In this document: in pieces, positions 11,024 through 24,056 of the stretch | How positions within the stretch are numbered: position 1 is the first letter of the stretch | Layout of the letters: the number at the start of each line of letters is the position of its first letter | DNA from: Syntrophus gentianae | Lineage (GTDB): Bacteria; Desulfobacterota; Syntrophia; Syntrophales; Syntrophaceae | Length of the DNA stretch: 64,000 bases | Assembly (NCBI RefSeq): GCF_900109885.1 | Contig: NZ_FOBS01000005.1 | Location: 62,001-126,000 of the forward strand | Reading direction: 5' to 3' | Notes under the pieces: model-generated | What the model saw: only the letters and a program-made list of their open reading frames with translations | Database searches by the model: none | Told to the model about the DNA's origin: nothing | Translations under genes and position numbers: made by a program

Positions 11024-12001
11024 TCACTTCAAAAAGATCGACCAGCCCGCCTTCAACGATCCGAGCAGAAGGTCCAGGGCGCCTGAAGCCTCCGAGACAG
11101 GGGAAAAACCGCACTCCTGACAGTTGATCCGGCCCCGGCTCTTGACATAGCAGCCCCGGGTAATGGCGCCGTCGGGATCGACATTGATGAGGATGTCGTC
11201 ATGGCAGCGCCAGTCGTTTTGTATCATGGCCCTCAGGCGTCCGGTGGAGTTGAGGATTGGAAGACCCTGCTTCTTCATTTCGATAACCTCCTCCAGGACG
11301 TCCCTTCGTTCCCTTTCGGACAAGGCCAGGGGCGCCTCTCCCTGCCCATAGGGGTAAAAGAGCTGAACCGTCATGCCACGGAATGCCGGTATTTCTTGAA
11401 GTTGTTTCAGGAGCGGCCGGATATCCCGCCGATTCTCACGGTTGATCGTGAAGTGGACAAAAAGGCGTCGATGCCGCGATGCACGCAGATTCGCCCAGAC
11501 TTTGTCGAAAGAACCGGAGCGGAGTCGGTTGTGGACTTCCCTCAAGCCGTCCAGACTGACCCAGAGGACATCTGCCGGAACATCCAAAGGAAAGGTCCCG
11601 TTGGTGGTTACGGCAACGCGGGGGAAGAGCCGCCTGGCGTAATCGATCAAGTCACGGAGATCGTGGCGTCCATCCCGCCACAGAAACGGCTCCCCGCCTT
11701 CAAAAACGACAATCAGGGCGCCGGCATGCTTCAGGACATCCAGGGAAGCCCTGGCCATGGACCAGCTCATGTGGGCGCGCTCTTCTTCGGCCCGGCGATG
11801 AAAGGGACAGGCAAGGCAGGAAAGATTACAGCGGTAAGTCAGTTTGAAACTCGCCAGAAGGGGAATTTTCTGGCCAAAGAGTTTGCGCCGGAAAAAAAAA
11901 ACAGGAAAGGGAGCCGCGCGGCGGATGGTCATCCCGAAGAAACGTCCCCACCGCGGCTCTGCCATCTGGACGTTGGAGAACTTGACAAGACTTCTATTCA
12001 T
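11024..12001 (-). CDS. Radical SAM protein with C-terminal cysteine cluster (SPASM/twitch-like)
   Basis: A radical S-adenosylmethionine enzyme. From ATG at 12001 the protein has 325 residues with the cluster motif CNLSCLAC at residues 58-65, then EGGEPFLW (the SAM-binding GGE) and a TIM-barrel-like body. Near the end, RCHDDILINVDPDG, RGCYV and NCQECGF provide at least four more cysteines, as in enzymes with an auxiliary Fe-S cluster that modify peptides or proteins. The start is uncertain: the frame stays open to a GTG at 12124, inside the preceding small gene, and no start has a strong Shine-Dalgarno sequence. Small proteins are encoded on both sides, so a peptide substrate is conceivable but unproven. 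Confidence 0.8.
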   Translation of the reverse strand: MNRSLVKFSNVQMAEPRWGRFFGMTIRRAAPFPVFFFRRKLFGQKIPLLASFKLTYRCNLSCLACPFHRRAEEERAHMSWSMARASLDVLKHAGALIVVFEGGEPFLWRDGRHDLRDLIDYARRLFPRVAVTTNGTFPLDVPADVLWVSLDGLREVHNRLRSGSFDKVWANLRASRHRRLFVHFTINRENRRDIRPLLKQLQEIPAFRGMTVQLFYPYGQGEAPLALSERERRDVLEEVIEMKKQGLPILNSTGRLRAMIQNDWRCHDDILINVDPDGAITRGCYVKSRGRINCQECGFSPVSEASGALDLLLGSLKAGWSIFLK

Positions 12002-12098
12002 TTGTGTAAAGAGGTTACCGCTTTTCCTGAAAGGCTGTGAAAAGGGGGTCAGAATCTTCCTGCCCCCATAATTCCCGCCGACGAGTTTCAAAGGGTTT

Positions 12099-12284
12099 TC
12101 AATGGCGCACCTTGATGCAGTCACTCTTCCAGAGACAATTGTTTTCGCATTCCTCTCTGGTGTGAAAGCAGGGGCTGTTTCCTTCCCTGACCTGGATATC
12201 CCAGATCAGATCCTGCTTGGAACGTCCGATTCTTGTGTCGATTCCCCAATGTTTGGCTATCTTTCTTATTTCCTGAATTTTCAT
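12099..12284 (-). CDS. Small SAP-like protein with four-cysteine tail (61 aa)
   Basis: The N-terminal 35 residues (MKIQEIRKIAKHWGIDTR... KQDLIWDIQ) resemble a SAP/Rho-N-type helical nucleic-acid-binding motif. The C-terminal part is cysteine-rich, CFHTREEC-ENNC-LWKSDC (spacings 7, 4 and 6), which suggests a metal site or disulfides. The start is secure: ATG with AAGGAGGAATGACCG upstream. I believe such proteins are frequent in deltaproteobacteria, usually annotated as SAP-domain hypotheticals. It lies directly before, and possibly overlaps, a radical SAM gene. Confidence 0.8.
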   Translation of the reverse strand: MKIQEIRKIAKHWGIDTRIGRSKQDLIWDIQVREGNSPCFHTREECENNCLWKSDCIKVRH

Positions 12285-12916
12285 CGGTCATTCCTCCTTA
12301 AAATGAATGAATTTTTCAATCCGGAAATCCAAATTCCCCTTCTTTTCCGGAAACAAAGACAAACAGCTTTTTCAGCTTATTTCAATTACTATGTAACGTA
12401 GCGGATTTACGGTGAACTGTCAATAGCCCATTTTCTCGTCGGGTTATGCCGGATCTCCAGGCCGTTATTTTGCATGCCCCTCTTTCCGTCTAGTTAGATT
12501 GTTCCAGGCAATAAAACAAGCTTAATTCGGGTTATATTTTCTTATAAGGGTTTTCCCGTAGTATTCAGGCTTAAATAAAAATTGCAGAAAAACCTTACTT
12601 TACAGAAATTATTACTTGAAATATTAGGCATTATAGAGATAAGAAGGAAACGGAGTTCAGCCAGACACTTACGGCTTCCTTAAACGCCTTAACCTGTTCC
12701 CCCCCGAAGAAAACCAGCCTTTTTAACCAATGGCGGCGATTTCTTGACTTCGGATGGTACGGCATTTGTCTTTTAGAATGTCAATAGCTTCTTAGTCGGC
12801 AGATTGTGGGTGAGCGAAATTTTCTCTTGAGCAATCGGATTGCTCTTCGCAACGGACAAAACAACCAACTCGCAATATTTTAAGTTCCGGGACAAGCGGT
12901 CTAAAGGGAGAGAATA
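12285..12916. other. Long intergenic region between divergent genes
   Basis: 632 bp with no convincing gene on either strand. It is AT-rich in the middle (12500-12640). It should hold promoters for the small SAP-like gene (leftward) and the redox operon (rightward). The clearest structured element is the palindrome at 12829-12845. Confidence 0.6.
12829..12845. promoter_or_regulatory. 17-bp palindrome upstream of redox operon
   Basis: GAGCAATCGGATTGCTC has seven-base perfect arms around CGG and lies 72 bp before the ATG at 12917. The symmetry and position fit an operator for a dimeric regulator. No regulator gene is adjacent. Confidence 0.45.
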
Positions 12917-14527
12917 ATGGGGAATTCCAAACCGGTTGAATTATTTCTTGACTCGTTGAAAAAGCACATCGGCGCCGAGGAACTGCTGGCGATGGATGCC
13001 TGTCTTGACTGCCAAAACTGCGGCAGCGGCTGCGCCTGGTATCTGGCTACCGGTGACGCCACCCTCCACCCAAAATATAAGAAAGACTTCATTCGCAAGG
13101 TTTATTATTCCCACATTCACCCCATTGGGCGAATGGCCACATCCCTGGGACTGCGCTCTCCCCTGACCGAAGAGACCCTGCGCCAATACATGCCCTATTT
13201 CTGGAAGTGCACGTCCTGTGGACGCTGTACGCTATCCTGCCCTCTTGGGCTCTCCAATCGAAGTGTTGTGCGTCTGGCACGCACCGCCTTTTGCGATTCG
13301 GGACTGATCAAGGAAAATCCGGTTTTAAACGAAGTGGTTGAAGGCAGCCGTCATTTCCGCCATTCTTTTTCCATCCCCAAAGAGAAAATCATGCTCAGGT
13401 ATGGTCTCTTTCTGTCGCACGAAAAGACCCTGGTTCCCATAGACACGCCCGATGTTGATTATCTCTTTGCTCCCTCGGCTGTGGAAAATGCAAAATTTCC
13501 TGATTTTGCCATCAAAATTCCCCAGATTCTCAATGCCGCAGGGGTAAGCTATACCTTCTCCTCAAGACTGACGGATACAGGTACGGACGCGGAGCATCTC
13601 GTGGTGGACCGTAATCTTTCCAGGGAGATGCTGGAAGAGGTCGAGCAGGAAGCGCAGCGGCTCTCGGCTCGCCGGGTCCTGGTTTCCGAATGCGGCTGTG
13701 ATGTCCGGACGTTCTATATCGAGGCGGAAACCATTCTGGGACGTCCCTTCAAGTTTCCCGTACAGAGCATCGATTCCCTGATGCTTGAGCTGATCCAATC
13801 CGGCGCGTTGCCGGTTGAGAAAGTGCCGGGTCCCGTTACATTCCATGATCCCTGCAAGGTCGTCCGACTTTCGGGTATGAGTCAGCTCGAACGGGAACTG
13901 CTGAACCGGGTGGCTGCGGACATCATCGAGATGTCCCCCAAAGGGGAATACAATTATTGCTGCAACGGCGGAACAGGCCCGCTCCGTTTACCTGAAAACT
14001 CGAAGCTGCGGCGGGAGATCTCCCAGATCAAGGCAAACCAGATATCGGCCACCACGGCCGAAAAAGTGGTAACTCCTTGCGCCGTATGCATGCTGACGCT
14101 GGAAGACATCTGCCAGACTTACAAGCTGTCAACGCCGGATCAGCGGATGTCTTTTATGACCTACGAGCTGGTTCATGAAGCGATGCAACGAGCCCTTGAG
14201 CGCACCGGCCAATCTTATCGGACTCAGATGCCCGCCGTCTTTCGGCAGCAAACGTCCGAATTTATCTTTAATCACAGCATGGCCGGTTTGTTCGAGAAGA
14301 TTTCCGCAAGCTCGGATATGCCAGCACTGTTTCAGTGGCTGGCCGATGATCCGGTAACATCTCGTTATTTCAAGGACCATCCTGACATGAAAGCCTATTC
14401 CGACTTCAAGACGTATCTTTTTCTCAAGCTTCAGCCGGGGTTCAATATCCATCCCGATGCTTACGAAGTCCTGGAGCTTTCGCGGGAAATGTTCAGCCAA
14501 TACGAAACCCTTTTGATTGCTGTGTAG
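12917..14527 (+). CDS. DsrK/HdrD-like iron-sulfur redox subunit
   Basis: A cytoplasmic-side electron-transfer subunit, 536 aa. Two 4Fe-4S motifs lie near the N-terminus: CLDCQNCGSGC (about residues 32-42) and CTSCGRCTLSCP (about 97-108). The C-terminal half has CCG-type heterodisulfide-reductase features: SECGCDVR, then HDPCKVVR ... YCCNGGTGP ... TPCAVC; the CCNGG form is like that of DsrK. Such proteins pass electrons between a membrane quinone/cytochrome partner and a thiol or disulfide carrier. The partner is the next gene, two bases after this stop. The physiological substrate cannot be read from sequence. Start: ATG with AAAGGGAGAG upstream. Confidence 0.85.
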   Translation: MGNSKPVELFLDSLKKHIGAEELLAMDACLDCQNCGSGCAWYLATGDATLHPKYKKDFIRKVYYSHIHPIGRMATSLGLRSPLTEETLRQYMPYFWKCTSCGRCTLSCPLGLSNRSVVRLARTAFCDSGLIKENPVLNEVVEGSRHFRHSFSIPKEKIMLRYGLFLSHEKTLVPIDTPDVDYLFAPSAVENAKFPDFAIKIPQILNAAGVSYTFSSRLTDTGTDAEHLVVDRNLSREMLEEVEQEAQRLSARRVLVSECGCDVRTFYIEAETILGRPFKFPVQSIDSLMLELIQSGALPVEKVPGPVTFHDPCKVVRLSGMSQLERELLNRVAADIIEMSPKGEYNYCCNGGTGPLRLPENSKLRREISQIKANQISATTAEKVVTPCAVCMLTLEDICQTYKLSTPDQRMSFMTYELVHEAMQRALERTGQSYRTQMPAVFRQQTSEFIFNHSMAGLFEKISASSDMPALFQWLADDPVTSRYFKDHPDMKAYSDFKTYLFLKLQPGFNIHPDAYEVLELSREMFSQYETLLIAV

Positions 14528-14529
14528 TC

Positions 14530-15348
14530 ATGAATGTCGAGCTGCTCCTCACATGCTACTTCTATACTGCCATGGGATTATGCGGGTTCGGGCTTCTGGA
14601 TCGATTCGTGCGCTTGATCATGGTAGGCCTGCCCCGGCACACCCGGGCGGCGATTGAACTGGTCGACGCCCCATCACCGCCATCGTTCGGGACGATCGCA
14701 AAAAGACTGCTGCTCGGACCTGCCCTGCATTTTCATTATAAAGCCAACCGTATCTGGACTCTTGGCTGTACCTTGTATCACCTGGCCATCCTCTTAACGG
14801 TCACCGGCTATGTCGTTGCAACAGGAATTCTGTTGTCCAAAATCGCCGGCGGAGTCGCGATCCCGGATTTTCATCGTCCTATGCCCGGAGGAAACAGTCT
14901 GGCGATCTCCAATCTCCTTGCTTTCATATTCGGCAATGCCGAGAAGTTTCCCAGTCAGTTTCTTTTCGGATCATGGGCGGCCTTCTTCCAGGCCATTGCG
15001 TGGTTCGATCTCCCCCTGGCCGTGATGGGAAACGGCTGCCTGCTGTACACGGTCCTGCGACGGCAGGTCGGCTCAATCCGCCATCGTCTCGATGATGCGA
15101 TGATCGAGAAGCAGCTTAGAGGCCAGTTTTCCGGACAACGTCTCTTTGTGCGCCTCATGATTTTTTCCATTATTCTTGCGGAATTTATCGGCCGGATGGG
15201 ATGGATGCCGAATATCGCCTATTATCATGCAGTGCTGGCCTTGAGCCTGATTGCCGCCCTTCCCTTCACCTATCTGGTCCATATCCCCTTAAGCCCCCTG
15301 GCTGCCTGGCTGGCCATCTGGCGCCGAAGACGGAACGCCATCGCTTAA
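14530..15348 (+). CDS. DsrM/HdrE/NarI-like membrane subunit
   Basis: An integral membrane protein of 272 aa with about five to six hydrophobic segments, including ones near residues 5-30, 75-105, 150-185, 212-232 and 238-262. Several histidines lie in or near membrane segments (for example LGCTLYHLAI and YYHAVLAL), as expected for a cytochrome b-type quinone-interacting subunit of DsrMK, TmcBC or HdrDE complexes. It starts two bases after the iron-sulfur subunit gene, so the two are co-translated and should form one complex at the inner membrane. Heme ligation is an inference from family resemblance. Confidence 0.8.
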   Translation: MNVELLLTCYFYTAMGLCGFGLLDRFVRLIMVGLPRHTRAAIELVDAPSPPSFGTIAKRLLLGPALHFHYKANRIWTLGCTLYHLAILLTVTGYVVATGILLSKIAGGVAIPDFHRPMPGGNSLAISNLLAFIFGNAEKFPSQFLFGSWAAFFQAIAWFDLPLAVMGNGCLLYTVLRRQVGSIRHRLDDAMIEKQLRGQFSGQRLFVRLMIFSIILAEFIGRMGWMPNIAYYHAVLALSLIAALPFTYLVHIPLSPLAAWLAIWRRRRNAIA

Positions 15349-15460
15349 ATCGTCCCATCCCTTGAAACAAAACGGATCTCAGCCTGAGGTAAAGCGCTTT
15401 TCAAAATCAGAGCGATTGCGGAGAACGGACAGGGGCTCGCCGGCAATTTTCATCTATATC

Positions 15461-15994
15461 TCATTCGCTCACGGGTAGGATGATATTGCTGAGTTTCCAT
15501 GACAAACCATTCCGCGTCAGGATAAACCGGATTTCCCGGTTTTTGTCGTCTTTCGTCCTTACGGAGAACTTGCTGAGACTATCGTAATGAAAAGAGGCAT
15601 TCTGCAAAAATCTGCTTTTCCCTTCGCCTGATGAGGACGATGCATCCGGTTTCGAACTTTGTTTCCGCTGTTCCCCTTCGACGAGTTTTGTTAAACCGTC
15701 GGGGGTTACCAGAGCGTCCACCATGCCATCAGCCATTTTGGACACCAGTCTTTTTGAGGCTCGAGCGACGGGGTTGTCTTCCGAATCCAGTGCTTTGCCG
15801 CTCAGAATACGGGAATGGAGCTGCTCCTTGAGGTTGGCGCGCAGCACGGGAAAATCGACGTATCGTGAAATCTTCTCGGGATCCGATTTCTCAACCCCGG
15901 TTTTTATCGAATACATCGCAATGTATGGGCCGGCGGCGGCATAAAGACCGACGGCAATCAACACCAATAGGATCAAACCGGCAATTTTCTTCAT
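15461..15994 (-). CDS. DUF2939-family exported or anchored protein
   Basis: 177 residues. An N-terminal hydrophobic segment (MKKIAGLILLVLIAVGLYAAAG) is a signal peptide or membrane anchor. It is followed by the DUF2939 pattern AMYSIKTGVEKSDPEKISRYVDFPVLRANLKEQL and a second half that looks like a small beta domain with a Ser/Lys-rich linker. The function of the family is unknown. ATG at 15994 is chosen because AGGAGGAAGG lies directly upstream; the frame extends to 16045. It is divergent from amtB and appears monocistronic. Confidence 0.75.
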   Translation of the reverse strand: MKKIAGLILLVLIAVGLYAAAGPYIAMYSIKTGVEKSDPEKISRYVDFPVLRANLKEQLHSRILSGKALDSEDNPVARASKRLVSKMADGMVDALVTPDGLTKLVEGEQRKQSSKPDASSSSGEGKSRFLQNASFHYDSLSKFSVRTKDDKNREIRFILTRNGLSWKLSNIILPVSE

Positions 15995-16206
15995 TTCTTC
16001 CTTCCTCCTGATCCCCGGCTGGGAATATCCGGGTTTTATCCGCATTCTTCATGGCGTGGGATAATCTTCCCCGGGTTGTTCGCCTAAATTTCAAATACCA
16101 TAGGAATAACTGCGGCAAGATGCAACGACAAAACGCATCCCCGGGTCAGGGAGAATTGCCCTTGCGGAACAGCGTCAACATAATCAGACAATTATGTGTC
16201 AATATC

Positions 16207-16219
16207 GTACATTGTGTAC
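16207..16219. promoter_or_regulatory. Palindrome, possible enhancer-binding site for amtB
   Basis: GTACATTGTGTAC (arms GTACA/TGTAC) lies about 75-90 bp upstream of the sigma-54 site, a normal position for a bacterial enhancer-binding protein such as NtrC. It does not match the classic enterobacterial NtrC consensus, so the assignment is tentative. Confidence 0.35.
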
Positions 16220-16283
16220 ATTTCTGTAAATTCACTCTAAGGCAGAGAACACTTATCTTATTGATATCTTGATAGTATTCCCA

Positions 16284-16299
16284 TGGCAGGATAATTGCC
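16284..16299 (+). promoter_or_regulatory. Sigma-54 promoter of amtB-PII operon
   Basis: TGGCAGGATAATTGCC matches the -24/-12 sigma-54 consensus: GG at 16285-16286 and GC at 16297-16298 have the required spacing. Transcription would start near 16310, leaving a leader of about 28 bases before the amtB ATG at 16338. Sigma-54 control of amtB-PII operons under nitrogen limitation is common. Confidence 0.85.
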
Positions 16300-16337
16300 C
16301 TTATCAGAGCGCATTTAAACTATTCGGGAGGTCAAAT

Positions 16338-17564
16338 ATGGTCAATACGATCAATGCGGGCGACACGGCCTGGATGCTCGTTTGTTGTTCCCTGGTGCTG
16401 CTGATGACGCCGGCCCTTGGGTTTTTTTACGGAGGGATGGTCCGCAGGAAAAATGTTCTGTCTACACTGACTCTCAGTTACATCTTCCTTTCCCTGATCG
16501 GGTTGCAATGGGTTGTTTTCGGGTATTCCCTTGCCTTCGGTCCTGATATCAGCGGTTTAATCGGAGGGTTGAATTTTGTGGGATTTCAGGGGGTAGACGC
16601 CCTGCCGAACGGCGACTACTCTAAGACCATCCCGCATGGACTCTTTGCCGCCTTTCAGATGATGTTTGCCGTGATTACCCCGGCATTGATTACCGGCGCC
16701 TTCGTGGAAAGAATCAAGTTTAAAAGTTTTCTTCTGTTCAGTCTGCTGTGGGCCACTCTCGTGTATGATCCTCTCTGTCACTGGGTCTGGGGTCAGGGCG
16801 GCTGGTTGAGGGCGTTGGGCGTGCTGGACTTTGCCGGGGGAACGGTGGTTCATATTGCCGCGGGTTTCTCGGCTCTGGCCTTTGCCATCGTCATCGGACC
16901 CCGCAAGGGCTACGGCAACGGCACCATGGAACCCAACAACATCCCCTTGACGGTCTTGGGGGCCGGCCTGTTGTGGGTGGGCTGGTTCGGTTTCAACGCC
17001 GGCAGCGCCCTGGCTGCCAACGGCGTGGCAGTCAACGCCCTGCTGACAACCAATACGTCGGCCGCAACCGCCGGCCTCGTCTGGATGCTCCTTTCCTGGC
17101 TCGATGGACGGCCAAGCACCCTGGGAATCGTAACCGGGATGGTCGTCGGCCTTGCGGCGGTCACCCCGGCTTCGGGTTATATTACGCCCCTGGCATCCAT
17201 CTGCGTAGGGGCCGTGGCCGCACCGCTGTCTTATTATGCCATGCGTTTCCGGGAACGGCGCAAACTGGATGAGTCCCTGGATGTATGGGCCTGTCACGGC
17301 ATGGCCAGCACCTGGGGCATGGTCGCCACGGGGCTCTTCGCCACCGTCGCCGTGAACGGCGATGGCAGGAACGGCCTGTTTTTCGGAAATCCCGAACAGA
17401 TCGGCGTTCAGCTTCTGGCTATTGTTGTGACCATCGTCTTTTCCTTCGGAATGACCTACCTGCTGGCGAAGATCCTGAATGGGAGCATCGGCCTGCGGGT
17501 ATCCCCCATGGCGGAGGAAGTCGGTCTGGATATCAGTTCCCACGGGGAACGGTCCTATTCATAG
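16338..17564 (+). CDS. amtB: Ammonium transporter AmtB
   Basis: An inner-membrane ammonium channel of 408 residues with the eleven-helix Amt pattern. Family signatures are ALGFFYGGMVRRKNVLS near the N-terminus, the twin pore histidines in GGTVVHIAAG and WACHGMASTWG, and LLWVGWFGFNAGSALAANG. ATG at 16338 follows GGGAGGT with a short spacer; the frame is open upstream to 16269, but that start would lie before the sigma-54 promoter. It is followed after 75 bp by its PII partner gene, and the pair is the standard amtB-glnK arrangement for nitrogen-limited growth. Confidence 0.95.
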   Translation: MVNTINAGDTAWMLVCCSLVLLMTPALGFFYGGMVRRKNVLSTLTLSYIFLSLIGLQWVVFGYSLAFGPDISGLIGGLNFVGFQGVDALPNGDYSKTIPHGLFAAFQMMFAVITPALITGAFVERIKFKSFLLFSLLWATLVYDPLCHWVWGQGGWLRALGVLDFAGGTVVHIAAGFSALAFAIVIGPRKGYGNGTMEPNNIPLTVLGAGLLWVGWFGFNAGSALAANGVAVNALLTTNTSAATAGLVWMLLSWLDGRPSTLGIVTGMVVGLAAVTPASGYITPLASICVGAVAAPLSYYAMRFRERRKLDESLDVWACHGMASTWGMVATGLFATVAVNGDGRNGLFFGNPEQIGVQLLAIVVTIVFSFGMTYLLAKILNGSIGLRVSPMAEEVGLDISSHGERSYS

Positions 17565-17639
17565 GGGTTGATTCGACATTCCAATCCCGGATCGAAAAAG
17601 AGACGCCATAACGTTTTCATTGAATTTGGAGATTATGCC

Positions 17640-18026
17640 ATGCTGAAAAAAATCGAAGCGATTATCCGTGAAGATAAAGTGAATGATGTCAAGGATGCCC
17701 TGTATGAAATCGGCATCATGGGATTGAACATGTTTGAAGTCCGGGGACATGGCCGCCAGGGCGGAATCAAACTGGTCGGCCGCGCCGGGACTTATCAGAT
17801 CAATATGCTTCCCAAGATCCAGATCAACATCGTTTTAAGTGATCATAATCTGGAGGCGGCAATTGAAGCCATCCTCGATTCGGCGCATACGGGCGAACCG
17901 GGGGACGGCTTGATCTTTGTCTATCCCGTCGATGAGGCGATCCGCGTCCGGACCCGCGAACGGGGTCAGGACGCCATGGTCTACCCCGGCGACATCGATT
18001 CCAGAAAAGACAAGGCAAAGGTCTGA
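17640..18026 (+). CDS. Nitrogen regulatory PII protein (GlnB/GlnK family), lacks Tyr51
   Basis: 128 residues. MLKKIEAIIREDKVNDVKDAL, GHGRQGG and the C-terminal GDGLIFVYPVDEAIRVRT are PII signatures for ATP and 2-oxoglutarate binding. It probably gates AmtB and other nitrogen targets. In the T-loop the position equivalent to E. coli Tyr51 is glycine (GRQGGIKLVGRAGTY against GRQKGHTELYRGAEY), so uridylylation at that site is not possible. ATG at 17640 has GGAG eight bases upstream. Regulation is likely purely allosteric or through another modification. Confidence 0.92.
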   Translation: MLKKIEAIIREDKVNDVKDALYEIGIMGLNMFEVRGHGRQGGIKLVGRAGTYQINMLPKIQINIVLSDHNLEAAIEAILDSAHTGEPGDGLIFVYPVDEAIRVRTRERGQDAMVYPGDIDSRKDKAKV

Positions 18027-18075
18027 AGCGTTTCAGGTAAAAGAGCAAATGCAGGGGCTCGGTTTCATGGCGATC

Positions 18076-20445
18076 TTATCCCCGGCGTCCGCTCCGTAGC
18101 AGTCTCATGCCGTTCATGGTCACCAGGAGGGAACTGCCCATGTCGCCCACCACGGCCAGCCAGAGTGTCAGCCATCCGGGAATGACCAGCAGGAGGATCA
18201 ACCCCTTGATGACCAGGGCGGCGAAAATATTCTCTTTAATGATGCGGAGGGTCCGGCGGCTCAAGTCCACCGTATAGGACAGTTTTGTCAGATCATCCGC
18301 CATCAGAGCGATGTCTGCCGTTTCCAGGGCGGCATCCGTCCCGGCCGTCCCCATGGCAATGCCCACCGTTGAGATGGCCATGGCAGGCGCGTCGTTCACC
18401 CCGTCCCCGACCATGGCCACTTTATGATATCGGGTCAAAAGCTCATTCATGGCCGCCATCTTGTCGGCGGGAAGCAGATCGGCTCGAAATTCATCCACTC
18501 CCACCTGGGCGGCAATGGCCCGGGCTGTACTGTCATTGTCTCCCGTCAGCATGACCATTTTTTTGATTCCGATCTTCCGAAGCTCCGCCAACGCCTGGCG
18601 GCTTTCCTTTCGCAAAACGTCCGCCACGGCGATCAGCCCCAGGACTTTCTCCGCCCCGCCAAGGATCATGACGGTCTTTCCTTCATTCTGCAGTGCGGAA
18701 ATCGTCTCTTCCATTTTCCCGAGGTTCCACCCTCTCTCCAGAAAAAACCGGGCATTTCCGATGGAATAGGATTGACCTTCAATCTTCCCCAGGGCGCCCT
18801 TCCCGGGAAGAGAATCGAAATCGGAAATTGGGGGAATCTTGAGGCCTTTTTCCTGGGCGCCCCGCAAAATCGCCTCTCCCAGAGGATGTTCGGAGCGGGA
18901 TTCAATGGCGGCTGCGATAACAAGAAGATCTTCTTCGGAAATGTCCATGACCGGAAGGACATCCGTCACTTTCGGCTTGCCGACGGTCAAGGTGCCGGTT
19001 TTGTCGAAAGCGATGACCGACAGGGCCCCCGCCTCCTCAAGATAAACGCCTCCCTTGATCAGCACGCCCTTTCTTGCCGCGCTGCCGATGGCGGAGACGA
19101 TGGAGACGGGCGTTGAGATCACCAGTGCACAGGGACAGGCGACCAGCAGCATCGCCATGGCCTCATAGAACCATTTGGAAAAGGGTTGCCCGAAAATCAG
19201 GGTCGGCAGGGTTGCGACAAGAAAGGCGCCGGCAATGACGGCAGGGGTATAATACCGGGCGAAACGGTCGATAAACTGCTGGGAAGGAGCCCGCTGTCCC
19301 TGAGCTTCCTCAACCATCTCGATGATCCGCGACAGGGTATTTTCCTTTGCCGACCTGGAAACCTGAACTTCCAGAAAGCCGCGTTCATTGATGGTTCCGG
19401 CAAAGACCTCATCGCCGATTCTTTTTTCCACAGGCAGAGACTCGCCGGTGATGGATGCCTGGTTTACGGAGGAGGATCCCGCCACCACGTTCCCATCCAT
19501 GGCGATTCGTCCTCCAGGGCGGACAACGATCAAATCCCCGATCCGGATTTCCTCCACGGGGAGGGTCATTTCCACACCATGACGTCTGACCAGCGCCTCT
19601 GCAGGGGATAGGCCCATTAAGGCACGGATGGAGTTTCGAGTCTTGTCCAGAGTATATCCCTGCAGGGCATTCCCCAGGGAAAAGAGGAAGACGACCGACG
19701 CCGCTTCCTCAAACTGGCGGATTGCCGCAGCACCGATGACGGCGATGGCCATCAGGATGTTCATATCCAGTTCACGGGCATTGATGAGCACGGAGATGCC
19801 GTTTCGCGCCGGGAGAAATCCACCCAGGACGATCCCGGCGGCAAAGAAGGCCGTAGAGATTCCGTCCGGCGCCTCCATTCTTGCCGAGAGGAGCCCCAAT
19901 GCCAGCATGATAAAAGAAATAGCCGTCGGCAGGGCATAGGGATTGGTCTTCCAAAAGGGTGCCGCCACTTTCCCCTTTTCCGGCCTGTCAATGGCGCCCG
20001 AATATCCCATCTTCTCGATGGTGGCCAGGATTTCGGAAACAGGCCCGGAATGAGAAACGATCATTTTTTCAGCGGCAAAATTCACCTGCGCCTTTTCCAC
20101 ACCGGGGATTCTGCCGATCCCCTTTTCCAATCTCGCGGCGCAATCCACACAATCGAGTCCCTCGATGCGAAAGGTCGATGCCCTGTTTTCAATGCCGCCT
20201 TTTTCGTCCGCCGTGGCGTCGTACCCCAACGCCCTCACTTTATCGATGACCGGCTCATCCCCAATGTCATCCTTCTCAAAATCAACGCTGAGCCTGCCCA
20301 AGGGAAAAGAGACCGTGGCGGACGCGACACCGGGAATTCTCCTGACCGCCTTTTCCAGTTTGGCGGCGCAATTTATGCAGTCCAACCCCGAAACCTGAAA
20401 GGTCCGGGAAGCCTTTAAATCCTTTCTCTCGTAACTTCCACTCAT
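18076..20445 (-). CDS. Zn/Cd/Pb-transporting P-type ATPase (ZntA-like)
   Basis: A P1B-type ATPase exporting divalent soft metals, about 789 residues. Two N-terminal heavy-metal-associated domains carry GLDCINC (C23, C26) and GLDCVDC (C99, C102). The transport motif ACPCALVISTPVSIVSAIG, phosphorylation site FDKTGTLT, SEHPLGEAI and GDGVNDAPAM are all present. CPC followed by STPVSIVSAI is the Zn/Cd/Pb rather than Cu subgroup signature. I prefer ATG at 20445; an in-frame TTG at 20466 has TGGA five bases upstream and is also possible. It is convergent with the PII gene, 50 bp apart. Confidence 0.92.
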   Translation of the reverse strand: MSGSYERKDLKASRTFQVSGLDCINCAAKLEKAVRRIPGVASATVSFPLGRLSVDFEKDDIGDEPVIDKVRALGYDATADEKGGIENRASTFRIEGLDCVDCAARLEKGIGRIPGVEKAQVNFAAEKMIVSHSGPVSEILATIEKMGYSGAIDRPEKGKVAAPFWKTNPYALPTAISFIMLALGLLSARMEAPDGISTAFFAAGIVLGGFLPARNGISVLINARELDMNILMAIAVIGAAAIRQFEEAASVVFLFSLGNALQGYTLDKTRNSIRALMGLSPAEALVRRHGVEMTLPVEEIRIGDLIVVRPGGRIAMDGNVVAGSSSVNQASITGESLPVEKRIGDEVFAGTINERGFLEVQVSRSAKENTLSRIIEMVEEAQGQRAPSQQFIDRFARYYTPAVIAGAFLVATLPTLIFGQPFSKWFYEAMAMLLVACPCALVISTPVSIVSAIGSAARKGVLIKGGVYLEEAGALSVIAFDKTGTLTVGKPKVTDVLPVMDISEEDLLVIAAAIESRSEHPLGEAILRGAQEKGLKIPPISDFDSLPGKGALGKIEGQSYSIGNARFFLERGWNLGKMEETISALQNEGKTVMILGGAEKVLGLIAVADVLRKESRQALAELRKIGIKKMVMLTGDNDSTARAIAAQVGVDEFRADLLPADKMAAMNELLTRYHKVAMVGDGVNDAPAMAISTVGIAMGTAGTDAALETADIALMADDLTKLSYTVDLSRRTLRIIKENIFAALVIKGLILLLVIPGWLTLWLAVVGDMGSSLLVTMNGMRLLRSGRRG

Positions 20446-20883
20446 GTAATGTTCTTTATCCCACAAACGAATCCATCAATCCGATTGTCTACACTCCTCC
20501 ATCGAGACCCATCCCGCCTCGTCTGGCGTCTTTCCTTGCCTATGGGTTCCGTCATACAGATCCAATCCGGTTTACAGTATCAATGTTTTTAAAATCCTTG
20601 TCAATGCCGGCATCAAGTCGTGACCTTTTTCATGAAGCAAATATTTTCCCCCATAAAATATCCTTGATAAGTCTTGACGCTGACGGAAACTTGTGCAACA
20701 ACAGTCGCAAATGCAGAGATGTTGGGAGGCGCTCTGTCTGTTCCTGATCATAATAACTCCTCGGATGGGAAGTTAACCATCCGTGATGCCCTGGTGTTCT
20801 CAAGAAGCAACGTCATCGTGTTTCGGAAAGCGATTCTTCATGGTTATCCCCTGTCCGGGAAAAATCGGTCTAAGGAGAGAACT
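20446..20883. other. Intergenic region between divergent metal ATPase and YkgJ-like gene
   Basis: About 440 bp with no supported gene. ATATTTT...AAAATAT (20641-20647 and 20655-20661) is a small AT-rich inverted repeat in the promoter zone. I found no clear MerR- or ArsR-type operator. Confidence 0.5.
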
Positions 20884-21216
20884 ATGGAATCGACAGTCCA
20901 AATCGCCTGCCAACAGTGCGGCACCTGCTGCCTGGCCAACGTGAACTGCTATGTGACGGACGAGGATCTCGAACGATGGAAAAGGGAGGGTCGGGATGAC
21001 ATCCTCCACATCATCGAGCATGAGCATGCCATGTGGGTGGGAGATCACCTGGTTTCGTCACTGGATGGACATTACCTTCACGGGTGTTCCTTTCTGACCT
21101 GGGAAGGCACTCACTATGCCTGCTCCATCTATGCGACAAGACCTTCGGTGTGCCGGGATTACCAGCCGGGATCATCGGAGATCTGCACGCAGTTTAACCA
21201 GAATCACCATTTTTGA
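20884..21216 (+). CDS. YkgJ-family cysteine cluster protein
   Basis: A small putative Zn- or Fe-S-chelating protein of 110 residues. The family pattern is clear: CQQCGTCC near the N-terminus, a central cysteine (HGCSFL), then CSIYATRPSVCRDYQPGSSEIC. ATG at 20884 follows TAAGGAGAGAACT, a good ribosome-binding site; an open frame reaches 20674 but has no family-like sequence there. The biochemical role of the family is not established. It may be transcribed alone. Confidence 0.85.
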   Translation: MESTVQIACQQCGTCCLANVNCYVTDEDLERWKREGRDDILHIIEHEHAMWVGDHLVSSLDGHYLHGCSFLTWEGTHYACSIYATRPSVCRDYQPGSSEICTQFNQNHHF

Positions 21217-21420
21217 TCCGTCTCGACTTCCGCATTTCTGTCGCCTCAAAATTCGACCCCGTCGTACAGAGGGGGAAACTGGCATTTTTTCCAGAGAAGA
21301 AACATTTCTTGCTTGTAACTTTCCTTCCTTATGTGTAGTTCAATAAAAGTTGGTCCGCCTGCGGTCCTGGACTGGTTTTAATCCAAGAATATCCAATCCG
21401 ATCTTGATGGGACGAGTAAA

Positions 21421-22695
21421 ATGATCCGAAGAAAATTGTTGATTTTTTTTGTCTGCCTGATTCCGTTATTCCCCTACGTCGTGTCCTGCTCTGTCGCGAC
21501 AAGCACTGGCAAGCCTCCTGCGAACTCTTCTCCTGCGGTTATTCAGTCCGTGCCGTTGAAGCCGAAGCAGGTGCAGACACAGATAAGAGAAGCGACTGGA
21601 AGAGAGGCATCAGAACTGCAAAAGACAACCGTTATAGAACCGCCGGCAAAAGAGGCGCCCAGACCGGCCGCCGTCCCTGCGCCGAGCCCCAACCCCAAAC
21701 CGGACAGAGCGCTGCTCAGGCTGGAAGGAGAAATAAAACGCCTCGCTGCCATGGCAGGAGGAACCGTCGGCGTCAGCGCCCTTCATATTGAATCGGGGCA
21801 ACTCTTTTCCTTTCATGGGGGGGTGCGATTTCCCATGGCCAGCGCTTACAAAATCCCCATCGCCGTTCAACTGCTCCGCCGGGTGGACCAAGGAGAGATC
21901 CGCCTGAATTCAATCGTCACCCTTACCAGCCACGACATCCATCCCGGCAGTGGCAAGCTCATCAAAACCTTCAAAAAGAAGGAGGCGAATTATTCGGTTC
22001 GGGAACTGCTGGAGCTGATGCTCCTGGTGAGCGACAACTCGGCCAGCGACGCCATCCTGAAGCTTGCCGGCGGACCGGAAGCCGTGACCAGAGCCATGAA
22101 AGACCTGGGCATAGAGGATATTACCGTCAGCCGCTCGACACTGAACATGCTGGCGGATTGGCGCGGCATTTCGAAGCTTCCCGCACCGGAGGCCTTTTGT
22201 CTAGAGAAGTATAACCGCCTGCGCGACACCGTCCCGGCAGACGCCCTTGAAAAGGCGCAGAACCGCTTCTATACCGATCTCCGCGATACGGCGACACCCG
22301 ATGCCATGACGAGCCTGCTGGCCATGATCTACGATGGAACGGTCCTTCAGCCGGAAACCACCTCCGTGCTTTTGAAGATCATGGAGCGCTGCCAGACTGG
22401 AAATTCCAGGATAAAGGGGCTGATGCCCCCCGGAATGACGGTTGCCAACAAGACCGGTACGATTGGGCCGGGCATGGTGAATGATGTCGCGATCCTGACC
22501 CTGCCCGAAGGAGCCGGTCATGTGGCCCTGACGATTTTCATCAAAATTTCCAACCGGAGCGTTGCCCGGCAGGAACTGGCCATGGCGCAGATGGCGCGCT
22601 ATCTGTACGACTATTATTTTTTTCAGAGTGAGGACCTTTTCGGAGCCGCCGCAAATGACACATGCTCTGCCTCTGACCCTCCCTGCTCCCGATAG
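21421..22695 (+). CDS. Class A beta-lactamase-like serine hydrolase, lipoprotein
   Basis: A 424-residue exported serine hydrolase. The N-terminus is a signal sequence with a lipobox (VVSC, C23), then a long Pro/Ala-rich linker (about 28-95), so the enzyme is probably tethered to a membrane. All class A elements are visible: S141-A-Y-K144, S204-D205-N206, a probable omega loop E277-xxx-N281 followed by RDTATP, and K344-T345-G346. It could be a penicillinase or a penicillin-interacting relative; the long insertion before E277 is unusual. The ribosome-binding site is weak. A deaminase gene follows 29 bp later. Confidence 0.85.
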   Translation: MIRRKLLIFFVCLIPLFPYVVSCSVATSTGKPPANSSPAVIQSVPLKPKQVQTQIREATGREASELQKTTVIEPPAKEAPRPAAVPAPSPNPKPDRALLRLEGEIKRLAAMAGGTVGVSALHIESGQLFSFHGGVRFPMASAYKIPIAVQLLRRVDQGEIRLNSIVTLTSHDIHPGSGKLIKTFKKKEANYSVRELLELMLLVSDNSASDAILKLAGGPEAVTRAMKDLGIEDITVSRSTLNMLADWRGISKLPAPEAFCLEKYNRLRDTVPADALEKAQNRFYTDLRDTATPDAMTSLLAMIYDGTVLQPETTSVLLKIMERCQTGNSRIKGLMPPGMTVANKTGTIGPGMVNDVAILTLPEGAGHVALTIFIKISNRSVARQELAMAQMARYLYDYYFFQSEDLFGAAANDTCSASDPPCSR

Positions 22696-22724
22696 GACCC
22701 GAATTTAATGGAGTAAATCGAAAA

Positions 22725-24056
22725 ATGAAAACGGTCGATACGTTGATTCTGGGGGGAACAATCCTCTGCCTTGACGAGTCCATGACTCTGATCGAGGATG
22801 GCGCCTTGGCGATCAAGGGTGACACGATTGCCGCTCTGGGAAGGGCGAATGAATTTCGGCAGAAGTTTACCAGTCAAAACATTCTTGACGGGACAAACTC
22901 TCTGATCATGCCGGGATTGATCAACAGCCATACCCACGCGGCTATGACCTGTTTCCGGGGAATTGCCGACGACATGCACCTGATGGAGTGGCTGACCAAG
23001 TACATCTTTCCCGCGGAGGCGAGAAACGTGGACCCGGAGCTGGCTTACTGGGGGAGCCTCCTGGCCTGCGCGGAAATGATCAGATCGGGAACGACCATGT
23101 TCTGCAACATGTATATCTTTGAAGCGGAAACGGCTCAGGCGGCCCGGAAGGCCGGGATGCGCTGCCTGCTGGGAGAGGTGCTTTTTGATTTTCCCTCTCC
23201 CAATGTCAAAACGCCGAAAGAAGGCCTGGCCTATACCCGGAAGCTCCTGGACACCTGGTCCGGCGATCCGCTGATCCGCATTGCCGTGGAGCCGCATTCC
23301 CTGTACACCTGCTCCCGCCCACTTCTTGTTGAAGCCGGGAAGCTGGCGGAAGAATATCAGGTTCCCCTGGCCCTTCATCTCCTGGAAACCCGTTCCGAAA
23401 AGGAGCAGCTTCGAGAAAAGCTCGGCCAGGAAGCCGTGCCTTATCTGGATGAACTCGGCTTACTCAACGAACGGCTGATCGCCTTTCACTGTGTCTGTCT
23501 TGACGATGAAGAGATTCGACTTTTCAGCGAAAAGGGGTGCAAGGTTGTCTATAATCCGGAGAGCAACATGAAGCTCGCTTCCGGTTTCGCACCCGTTTCC
23601 AGGATGATCAGGGAAGGCGTCTGCGTTGGGCTGGGAACGGATGGGTGTGCGAGCAACAACAGTCTGGACATGTTCCAGGAAATGGATACGGCGGCAAAGC
23701 TCGAAAAGGTGCGGCATCTCGATCCGACCTTGATGCCCGCGGAAACCGTCGTGGCGATGGCCACCCGTCAGGGAGCCCGCGTCCTGGGAATGGAAGAGAT
23801 CACCGGGGTCCTGAAAGAGGGGAAAAAAGCGGACCTCATCCTGATCGATCTGAACCGCCCCCATCTGACCCCCATGTACAATCCCTATTCACACCTGGTC
23901 TATGCCGTCAACGGCTCCGATGTGAAGACGGTTTTCATTTCCGGGAAAATGGTCATGAAAGACCGGAATCTCCTCACCCTGGATGAAGAGGAGATCATGC
24001 AGCGGGTCTGCCGGATTGCGGAACGGATCCGGGACTCCCTTAAAGAACCTTCTTAA
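22725..24056 (+). CDS. Amidohydrolase, SAH/MTA/guanine-type deaminase (MtaD/SsnA family)
   Basis: A metal-dependent deaminase of 443 residues. Family motifs are the SHTH metal site in PGLINSHTHAAMTCFRG, VEPHSLYTCS, the later FHCVCLDD, and GLGTDGCASNNSLDM with the metal-binding aspartate. The closest functional guess is 5-methylthioadenosine/S-adenosylhomocysteine deaminase, a purine-salvage step, but chlorohydrolase and cytosine deaminase relatives share the fold. It is probably co-transcribed with the lipoprotein upstream; a strong terminator follows at 24136. Confidence 0.87.
   Translation: MKTVDTLILGGTILCLDESMTLIEDGALAIKGDTIAALGRANEFRQKFTSQNILDGTNSLIMPGLINSHTHAAMTCFRGIADDMHLMEWLTKYIFPAEARNVDPELAYWGSLLACAEMIRSGTTMFCNMYIFEAETAQAARKAGMRCLLGEVLFDFPSPNVKTPKEGLAYTRKLLDTWSGDPLIRIAVEPHSLYTCSRPLLVEAGKLAEEYQVPLALHLLETRSEKEQLREKLGQEAVPYLDELGLLNERLIAFHCVCLDDEEIRLFSEKGCKVVYNPESNMKLASGFAPVSRMIREGVCVGLGTDGCASNNSLDMFQEMDTAAKLEKVRHLDPTLMPAETVVAMATRQGARVLGMEEITGVLKEGKKADLILIDLNRPHLTPMYNPYSHLVYAVNGSDVKTVFISGKMVMKDRNLLTLDEEEIMQRVCRIAERIRDSLKEPS

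Follow-up and report, generated by a model that had tools for sequence, protein, structure and literature searches.

The K-M gene pair and its cluster-binding motifs

The window analysed here is a 64,000-nucleotide stretch of the genome of Syntrophus gentianae, an anaerobe that degrades fatty acids (contig NZ_FOBS01000005.1, positions 62,001 to 126,000 of the forward strand). It carries two adjacent plus-strand genes, named K and M, that form the subject of this work. K (12917-14527) starts with ATG and codes for a 536 amino acids-long iron-sulfur subunit, identified by its open reading frame (ORF) and by profile matches; its presumed ribosome-binding region was assigned from the sequence to 12902-12916 on the same strand. 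M (14530-15348), also starting with ATG, codes for a 272-residue polypeptide that is a probable NarI-like membrane cytochrome b subunit. The ORF list spaces the two genes by two bases, exactly as described in an earlier model-made reading of the DNA letters (the sequence-only reading). Its view of a DsrMK/HdrDE-like pair, composed of an iron-sulfur and a probable quinone-facing membrane subunit, is borne out. The same reading had remarked that neither dsrAB nor hdrABC is nearby, and this holds for the ten proteins around K-M (11024-24056) that were scanned with Pfam and NCBIfam profiles, the only ones covered in the window: DsrAB and HdrABC are absent among them, no dsrJOP or dsrAB linkage of K was found, and no etf, thiol-carrier or DsrC gene was recognised. 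A search of the whole genome gave no dsrA match over the cut-off, while dsrB and dsrJOP were searched only at the locus.

K matches the Pfam families Fer4_8 and CCG above their cut-offs, CCG only once. Two 4Fe-4S motifs (C29/C32/C35/C39 and C98/C101/C104/C108) are followed by a degenerate first CCG site, which keeps only C259-G-C261, and by a complete second CCG motif (C313/C348-C349/C388/C391). K also carries C399 and, from about residue 425, a C-terminal extension specific to its family. All cluster-ligand cysteines are kept in the 22 family members identified (see next section), and this cysteine set looks like that of a working protein. The best match of the AlphaFold model of K (predicted local distance difference test (pLDDT) 85.9) is mycobacterial EtfD (Foldseek E 1.5e-13; Z 27.5 over 412 residues, 3.3 A). 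The model thus has the overall fold of the soluble part of EtfD/EMO (EMO, electron transfer flavoprotein (ETF):menaquinone oxidoreductase). LutA and HdrB come next (Z 19.5-21.9), followed by a Helicobacter protein without known function (Z 17.3). According to passages of PMC13083937, the non-cubane cluster of EtfD is held by C637, C672, C673, C709 and C712; by spacing, C313/C348/C349/C388/C391 of K parallel these residues. EtfD/EMO proteins have ligands for clusters in both CCG domains, a feature not found in K with its one CCG match.

The best NCBIfam match of K is DsrK (NF045796; 168.9 bits, E 1.5e-49, cut-off 400), followed by TmcB (NF045724; 140.9 bits, cut-off 735) and HmcF (NF045711; 130.3 bits, cut-off 750). 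Assignment of K as DsrK, TmcB or HmcF was rejected on these scores, which are far below the curated cut-offs; in the trees K also lies apart from the relatives of this kind that were compared. The seven DsrK/HmcF/TmcB-like relatives scanned likewise miss the cut-offs, the best of them reaching 331.9 of the 400 bits set for DsrK.

The K family, its genomic context and the upstream palindrome

Among the best 80 of 572 relatives (588 stretches) found with K in 84,980 species genomes, three, all from Chloroflexota, match K at 48-49% identity over residues 3-507. The remaining 77 have 27-32% identity and end by residue 448, bar one archaeal match whose segments reach residue 491, though its protein stops shortly past the CCG motif. 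K is present (E<=1e-90) in 20 of 400 sampled Chloroflexota genomes. Eighteen of these 20 are not among the 80 matches above, some possibly being outside that collection; because they were not returned and the scan kept the best 80, it does not show other phyla to be without K. In the sample of 395 genomes from the phylum of S. gentianae (Desulfobacterota), four match at E<=1e-50 and only the window's genome has K, the other three encoding DsrK/TmcB/HmcF-like proteins with 30-33% identity to it. One of the four Syntrophus genomes has K, and K-M was not found in the three others. A plasmid search with K gave 16 records; the ten shown have 22-26% identity and none covers 80%. A viral scan with M gave no match.

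The family consists of 22 members, K of the window and 21 Chloroflexota proteins that are 47-51% identical to it (BLAST). M is 32-38% identical over the alignment to 16 Chloroflexota M proteins. Chloroflexus islandicus and a Roseiflexus metagenome-assembled genome are among the Chloroflexota that carry the pair. Three positions set the family apart from 98 other sequences: residue 261 is a cysteine in 22/22 members and a histidine in 98/98 others; residue 399 is a cysteine in all members and in two of the others; residue 149 is a histidine in all members and an asparagine in 94 of the others. The stretch from C391 on (counting C391) has 117-156 residues in the family, while in the 98 others it has 29-63 (67 sequences), 97 (one) or 174-197 residues (30). 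Five of these longest ones, the HmcF-like proteins L018, L020, L028, L029 and L030, carry a response-regulator-like C-terminal tail, as seen in the alignment and, for L029, by a profile match.

The 22 K proteins group in one clade (SH-like approximate likelihood ratio test, 100) in a tree of 88 sequences, taken from the 125 gathered by thinning on locus number, in which 61 DsrK/HmcF/TmcB-like relatives stand apart. A smaller tree of 35 hand-chosen sequences recovers 13 K proteins as one clade (support 100/100) apart from 22 such relatives. The phylogeny proposed along with the sequence-only reading, against DsrK, TmcB, HdrD and GlcF, is thereby answered in part: K is separate from DsrK/HmcF/TmcB-like relatives, in trees whose references include neither HdrD nor GlcF and whose scanned DsrK-like members are all below the DsrK cut-off. 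Two TfrB/HdrD-like CCG proteins (G000:C25:42318-43223 and C41:19088-19993) have identical tree rows, reflecting a recent duplication or an assembly repeat. K of the window is sister to all 21 Chloroflexota proteins in the larger tree. This placement speaks against a recent transfer from the sampled Chloroflexus/Roseiflexus side. Constraining K of the window to that side only is mildly rejected in the smaller tree (approximately unbiased (AU) test, p 0.038), although the test presupposes a group chosen in advance and this one was not. The window's genome probably gained K-M horizontally, from a lineage sister to the sampled Chloroflexota copies.

In 20 of the 21 Chloroflexota loci, K is followed by an M gene of the same orientation; in the remaining one the contig stops 605 bases past K. 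Class III CoA transferases of the 3-hydroxypropionate-bicycle type are found in 10/21 loci, a mesaconyl-C4-CoA hydratase-like gene in eight and a malyl-CoA lyase-like gene in five. Their names come from profile matches, from the way they group together and from the genes listed in PMC3150298. Of the bicycle-like genes tested, a single one, the mesaconyl-CoA isomerase, exceeds an NCBIfam cut-off. The lyase and two further CoA transferases have matches to their Pfam families or to models whose equivalog cut-offs they miss, and the hydratase-like gene has only a borderline Pfam match (22.4 versus 22 bits). A link of K-M to the 3-hydroxypropionate bicycle is suggestive only, because genes of this type were not recognised in the remaining 11 loci; some of the loci are on short contigs. 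As the defining context of the pair the bicycle was rejected, being present in only 10/21 loci. In 11 of the 21 loci (e.g., L166:10483-10974 and L174:10311-10868), K has a small helix-turn-helix (HTH)-like gene upstream in the same orientation. It is possibly a domesticated regulator; of the two tested, one weakly resembles the ISAzo13 transposase family, with a score under the cut-off. Neither the bicycle genes nor the HTH-like gene were seen in the window. The flanks that enclose K-M in S. gentianae hold an alpha-amylase gene instead in the sister genome G036, and the pair therefore occupies a variable chromosomal spot (window 12400-15460; L135:6480-7994 in G036).

A 17-bp palindrome, GAGCAATCGGATTGCTC, is present at 12829-12845 (no strand assigned), its end being 71 bases 5' of the K start codon. 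The sequence-only reading took it for an operator. The palindrome is there, but its role as a regulatory site was rejected because it occurs at chance frequency and has no near copy in the genome: perfect 8-bp arms around a one-base centre are found twice in the window versus a mean of 1.23 expected from 30 dinucleotide shuffles, and the 3.7-Mb genome contains the exact sequence a single time, with no site at one or two mismatches and six other sites at three. The search for further copies that might delineate a regulon, proposed with that reading, thus yielded none within two mismatches. Nothing close to it was found in the relatives either, the best match between 300 bases before and 150 after the K ORF start in the 21 Chloroflexota loci having 6-8 mismatches of 17. 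Neither a terminator-like site nor an unusually stable RNA fold was found at the palindrome, and Rfam gave no match up to E 0.5 in the 11900-16400 segment. It looks like a chance occurrence.

Three other ORFs of the scanned segment deserve mention. On the minus strand, 12099-12284 codes for 61 amino acids with a weak, below-cut-off Rho_N match; each of the four Syntrophus genomes contains similar DNA, the window's genome with a second copy on contig C19. A radical SAM protein, whose N-terminus is uncertain, is encoded at 11024-12124 on the same strand and is nearest to the PTO1314 family (129.8 bits versus a cut-off of 306). On the plus strand, 21421-22695 codes for a class A beta-lactamase over the NCBIfam cut-off (216.3 versus 200 bits), in an anaerobic syntroph.

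A putative electron pathway between a cytosolic partner and menaquinone

We consider it probable that K-M acts as an electron wire of the EtfD/HdrDE type, split over two chains, that connects a cytosolic partner with menaquinone. The two proteins would form a membrane complex facing the cytoplasm that acts like a split EtfD/EMO or HdrDE. M would be a NarI-like cytochrome b exchanging electrons with (methyl)menaquinone, and K, with a pair of cubane 4Fe-4S clusters plus a non-cubane one in the second CCG domain, would provide the wire from the membrane to the partner. The partner would be a soluble electron carrier, either an ETF-type flavoprotein or a carrier with a dithiol, and would meet K at the non-cubane cluster and at the C259-G-C261/C399 cysteines specific to the family. 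Electrons would flow in net from the partner to menaquinone in Chloroflexota, and possibly in either direction in the syntroph. The cofactors, the assembly of the complex, its reaction with quinone, its orientation and the direction of flow are what we infer from these data. K lacks two of the traits that define EtfD/EMO, though its electrons very likely take the same route as theirs.

The assignment of M draws on conserved histidines and on predicted structure. H84, H233 and H251 are invariant in the 17 M proteins aligned (M of the window and 16 of the 20 Chloroflexota M found). H233 and H251, spaced as H-x17-H in the last membrane helix, lie in a motif common to the EMO-type protein of the same genome, while the five membrane genes that precede DsrK/HmcF-like genes code for one invariant last-helix histidine. 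The top matches of the M model are NarI chains (Z 9.4-10.4), with EtfD next (Z 9.2) and unrelated helical bundles at about 6. The VIA-align listing for M contains neither HdrE nor DsrM, which is not evidence of dissimilarity.

Several observations weigh against the electron-wire proposal. M scores 21.7 bits with Pfam NarI (PF02665), just under the 22.9 cut-off, and among its relatives two reach 16.6 and 16.4 bits and two more have no match up to E 0.001. Its AlphaFold model is of middling confidence (pLDDT 74.3), a Z of about 10 is within the range that helical bundles may reach by chance, Foldseek found no match of the model at E<=0.001, and hhalign did not relate M significantly to the EMO-type protein (probability 1.1%). 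In K, a linear cluster as in EtfD is unlikely at the first CCG site because the usual ligands are missing there. The K clade has a long stem, and long branches join at its base, which makes the position of the whole clade uncertain. Finally, no partner gene recurs across the K-M loci, in which few neighbours were profile-scanned, and for this reason the electron partner or substrate and the direction are guesses.

The genome also encodes an EMO-type protein, with Fer4 and two CCG domains, adjoining etfBA. It appears from its domains and gene neighbours to be an EMO orthologue. In S. aciditrophicus, EMO is reported to be the step of the reverse redox loop (PMC8805022). Since K-M was not found in the three congeners and the EMO-type protein is present beside etfBA, K-M looks accessory: it is most likely an addition that is not required for syntrophic reverse electron transfer, and the need for it suggested by the sequence-only reading is unsupported. 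That reading also proposed that the complex may link the quinone pool to a thiol or electron-bifurcating partner, of which the probable quinone-facing subunit stands and the thiol partner is possible.

A thiol substrate is central to the alternative that fares best, in which K-M is an HdrDE-kind menaquinol:disulfide (or thiol:menaquinone) oxidoreductase whose non-cubane cluster and C259-G-C261/C399 thiols make or break a disulfide, on a small thiol compound or on a protein resembling DsrC. The complete second CCG motif, C261 (22/22 in the family versus 0/98 in relatives) and C399 (22/22 versus 2/98), and HdrB and LutA as the best folds after EtfD speak for such an enzyme. We nevertheless regard it as somewhat unlikely, given that K has one complete CCG motif (one Pfam match versus two in the EMO-type protein), that the ten window proteins scanned include no thiol carrier or DsrC, and that no recurring thiol-type neighbour was recognised among the few neighbours profile-scanned in the Chloroflexota loci.

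A bolder proposal, which we put forward as a doubtful one, is that the pair represents an undescribed class of menaquinone-linked oxidoreductases. Its marks are the C-G-C that replaces the C-G-H of all 98 relatives, C399 and the family's own C-terminal extension. The C-G-C dithiol beside the non-cubane cluster would be the catalytic site. In Chloroflexus and Roseiflexus the enzyme would take part in a so far unrecognised redox step connected with the 3-hydroxypropionate bicycle or with the organic substrates of that cycle. A single syntroph would have acquired it and would use it, alongside EMO, to couple the oxidation of a substrate to the quinone pool.

It is most improbable that K-M is a stray homologue of DsrMK or TmcBC/HmcEF that left a sulfur-metabolism complex but kept its task: DsrK is the best NCBIfam match of K, ahead of TmcB and HmcF, but K is far under the cut-offs (missed by the seven relatives scanned too) and apart from such relatives on a long stem, C261 replaces H261, the five loci compared have the membrane gene first and one invariant last-helix histidine where M has two, and the genome lacks a dsrA over the cut-off. 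Equally hard to credit is a recently acquired, unused pair without function in this organism, consistent as this would be with a variable spot where G036 has an alpha-amylase gene, with absence from the three other Syntrophus genomes searched and with K in 1/395 genomes of the phylum, since both frames are open, every ligand residue is kept at about 50% divergence from the nearest relatives found and the third-position GC content is within the range of the neighbours.

Comparison with known systems

The electron wire proposed for K-M is built of known parts. It resembles EtfD/EMO in the predicted fold of the soluble part, in the probable NarI-like membrane part, in the two 4Fe-4S motifs and in the non-cubane CCG motif, and the genome's own EMO-type protein shares with M the H-x17-H of the last membrane helix. 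It differs from EtfD/EMO, which are one chain, by being encoded in two genes with the soluble subunit first, by the loss of the first CCG motif (one Pfam CCG match versus two), by the CGC, C399 and extra C-terminal extension of K, and by the absence of etf among the scanned neighbours. DsrMK, TmcB and HmcF share with it a degenerate first CCG site, a complete second one and a separate membrane subunit, and the DsrK/TmcB/HmcF-like relatives align with K over about 380-410 residues at 26-33% identity. They differ from K by its C261 in place of H261, by C399, by the C-terminal extension and by its separate clade, and the gene order is reversed relative to the five loci compared, where the membrane gene comes first (2/5 of these are over the Pfam NarI cut-off).

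HdrDE, as described in passages of PMC13083937, is likewise a pair of an iron-sulfur CCG protein and a membrane subunit. K has one complete CCG motif instead of two. To our knowledge, coenzyme M/coenzyme B metabolism, as for HdrDE, is not expected in a bacterium. The Chloroflexota pairs (Chloroflexus, Roseiflexus and others) are true relatives with the same gene order, from which the window differs in that bicycle genes are near K-M in 10 of the 21 loci and an HTH-like gene is upstream in 11. Among the titles and abstract openings listed in searches of open-licence papers, none names or describes the K-M pair. The parts of K-M are already known and their combination is new: a CGC first CCG site, C399, the C-terminal extension, the K-M order and the occurrence in Chloroflexota and one syntroph. 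HdrDE, DsrMK and EtfD/EMO, in which a CCG-domain protein is paired with a cytochrome b, control the entry and exit of electrons at the quinone pool in anaerobes and mycobacteria; with K-M, one syntroph would have another way into the menaquinone pool in addition to EMO.

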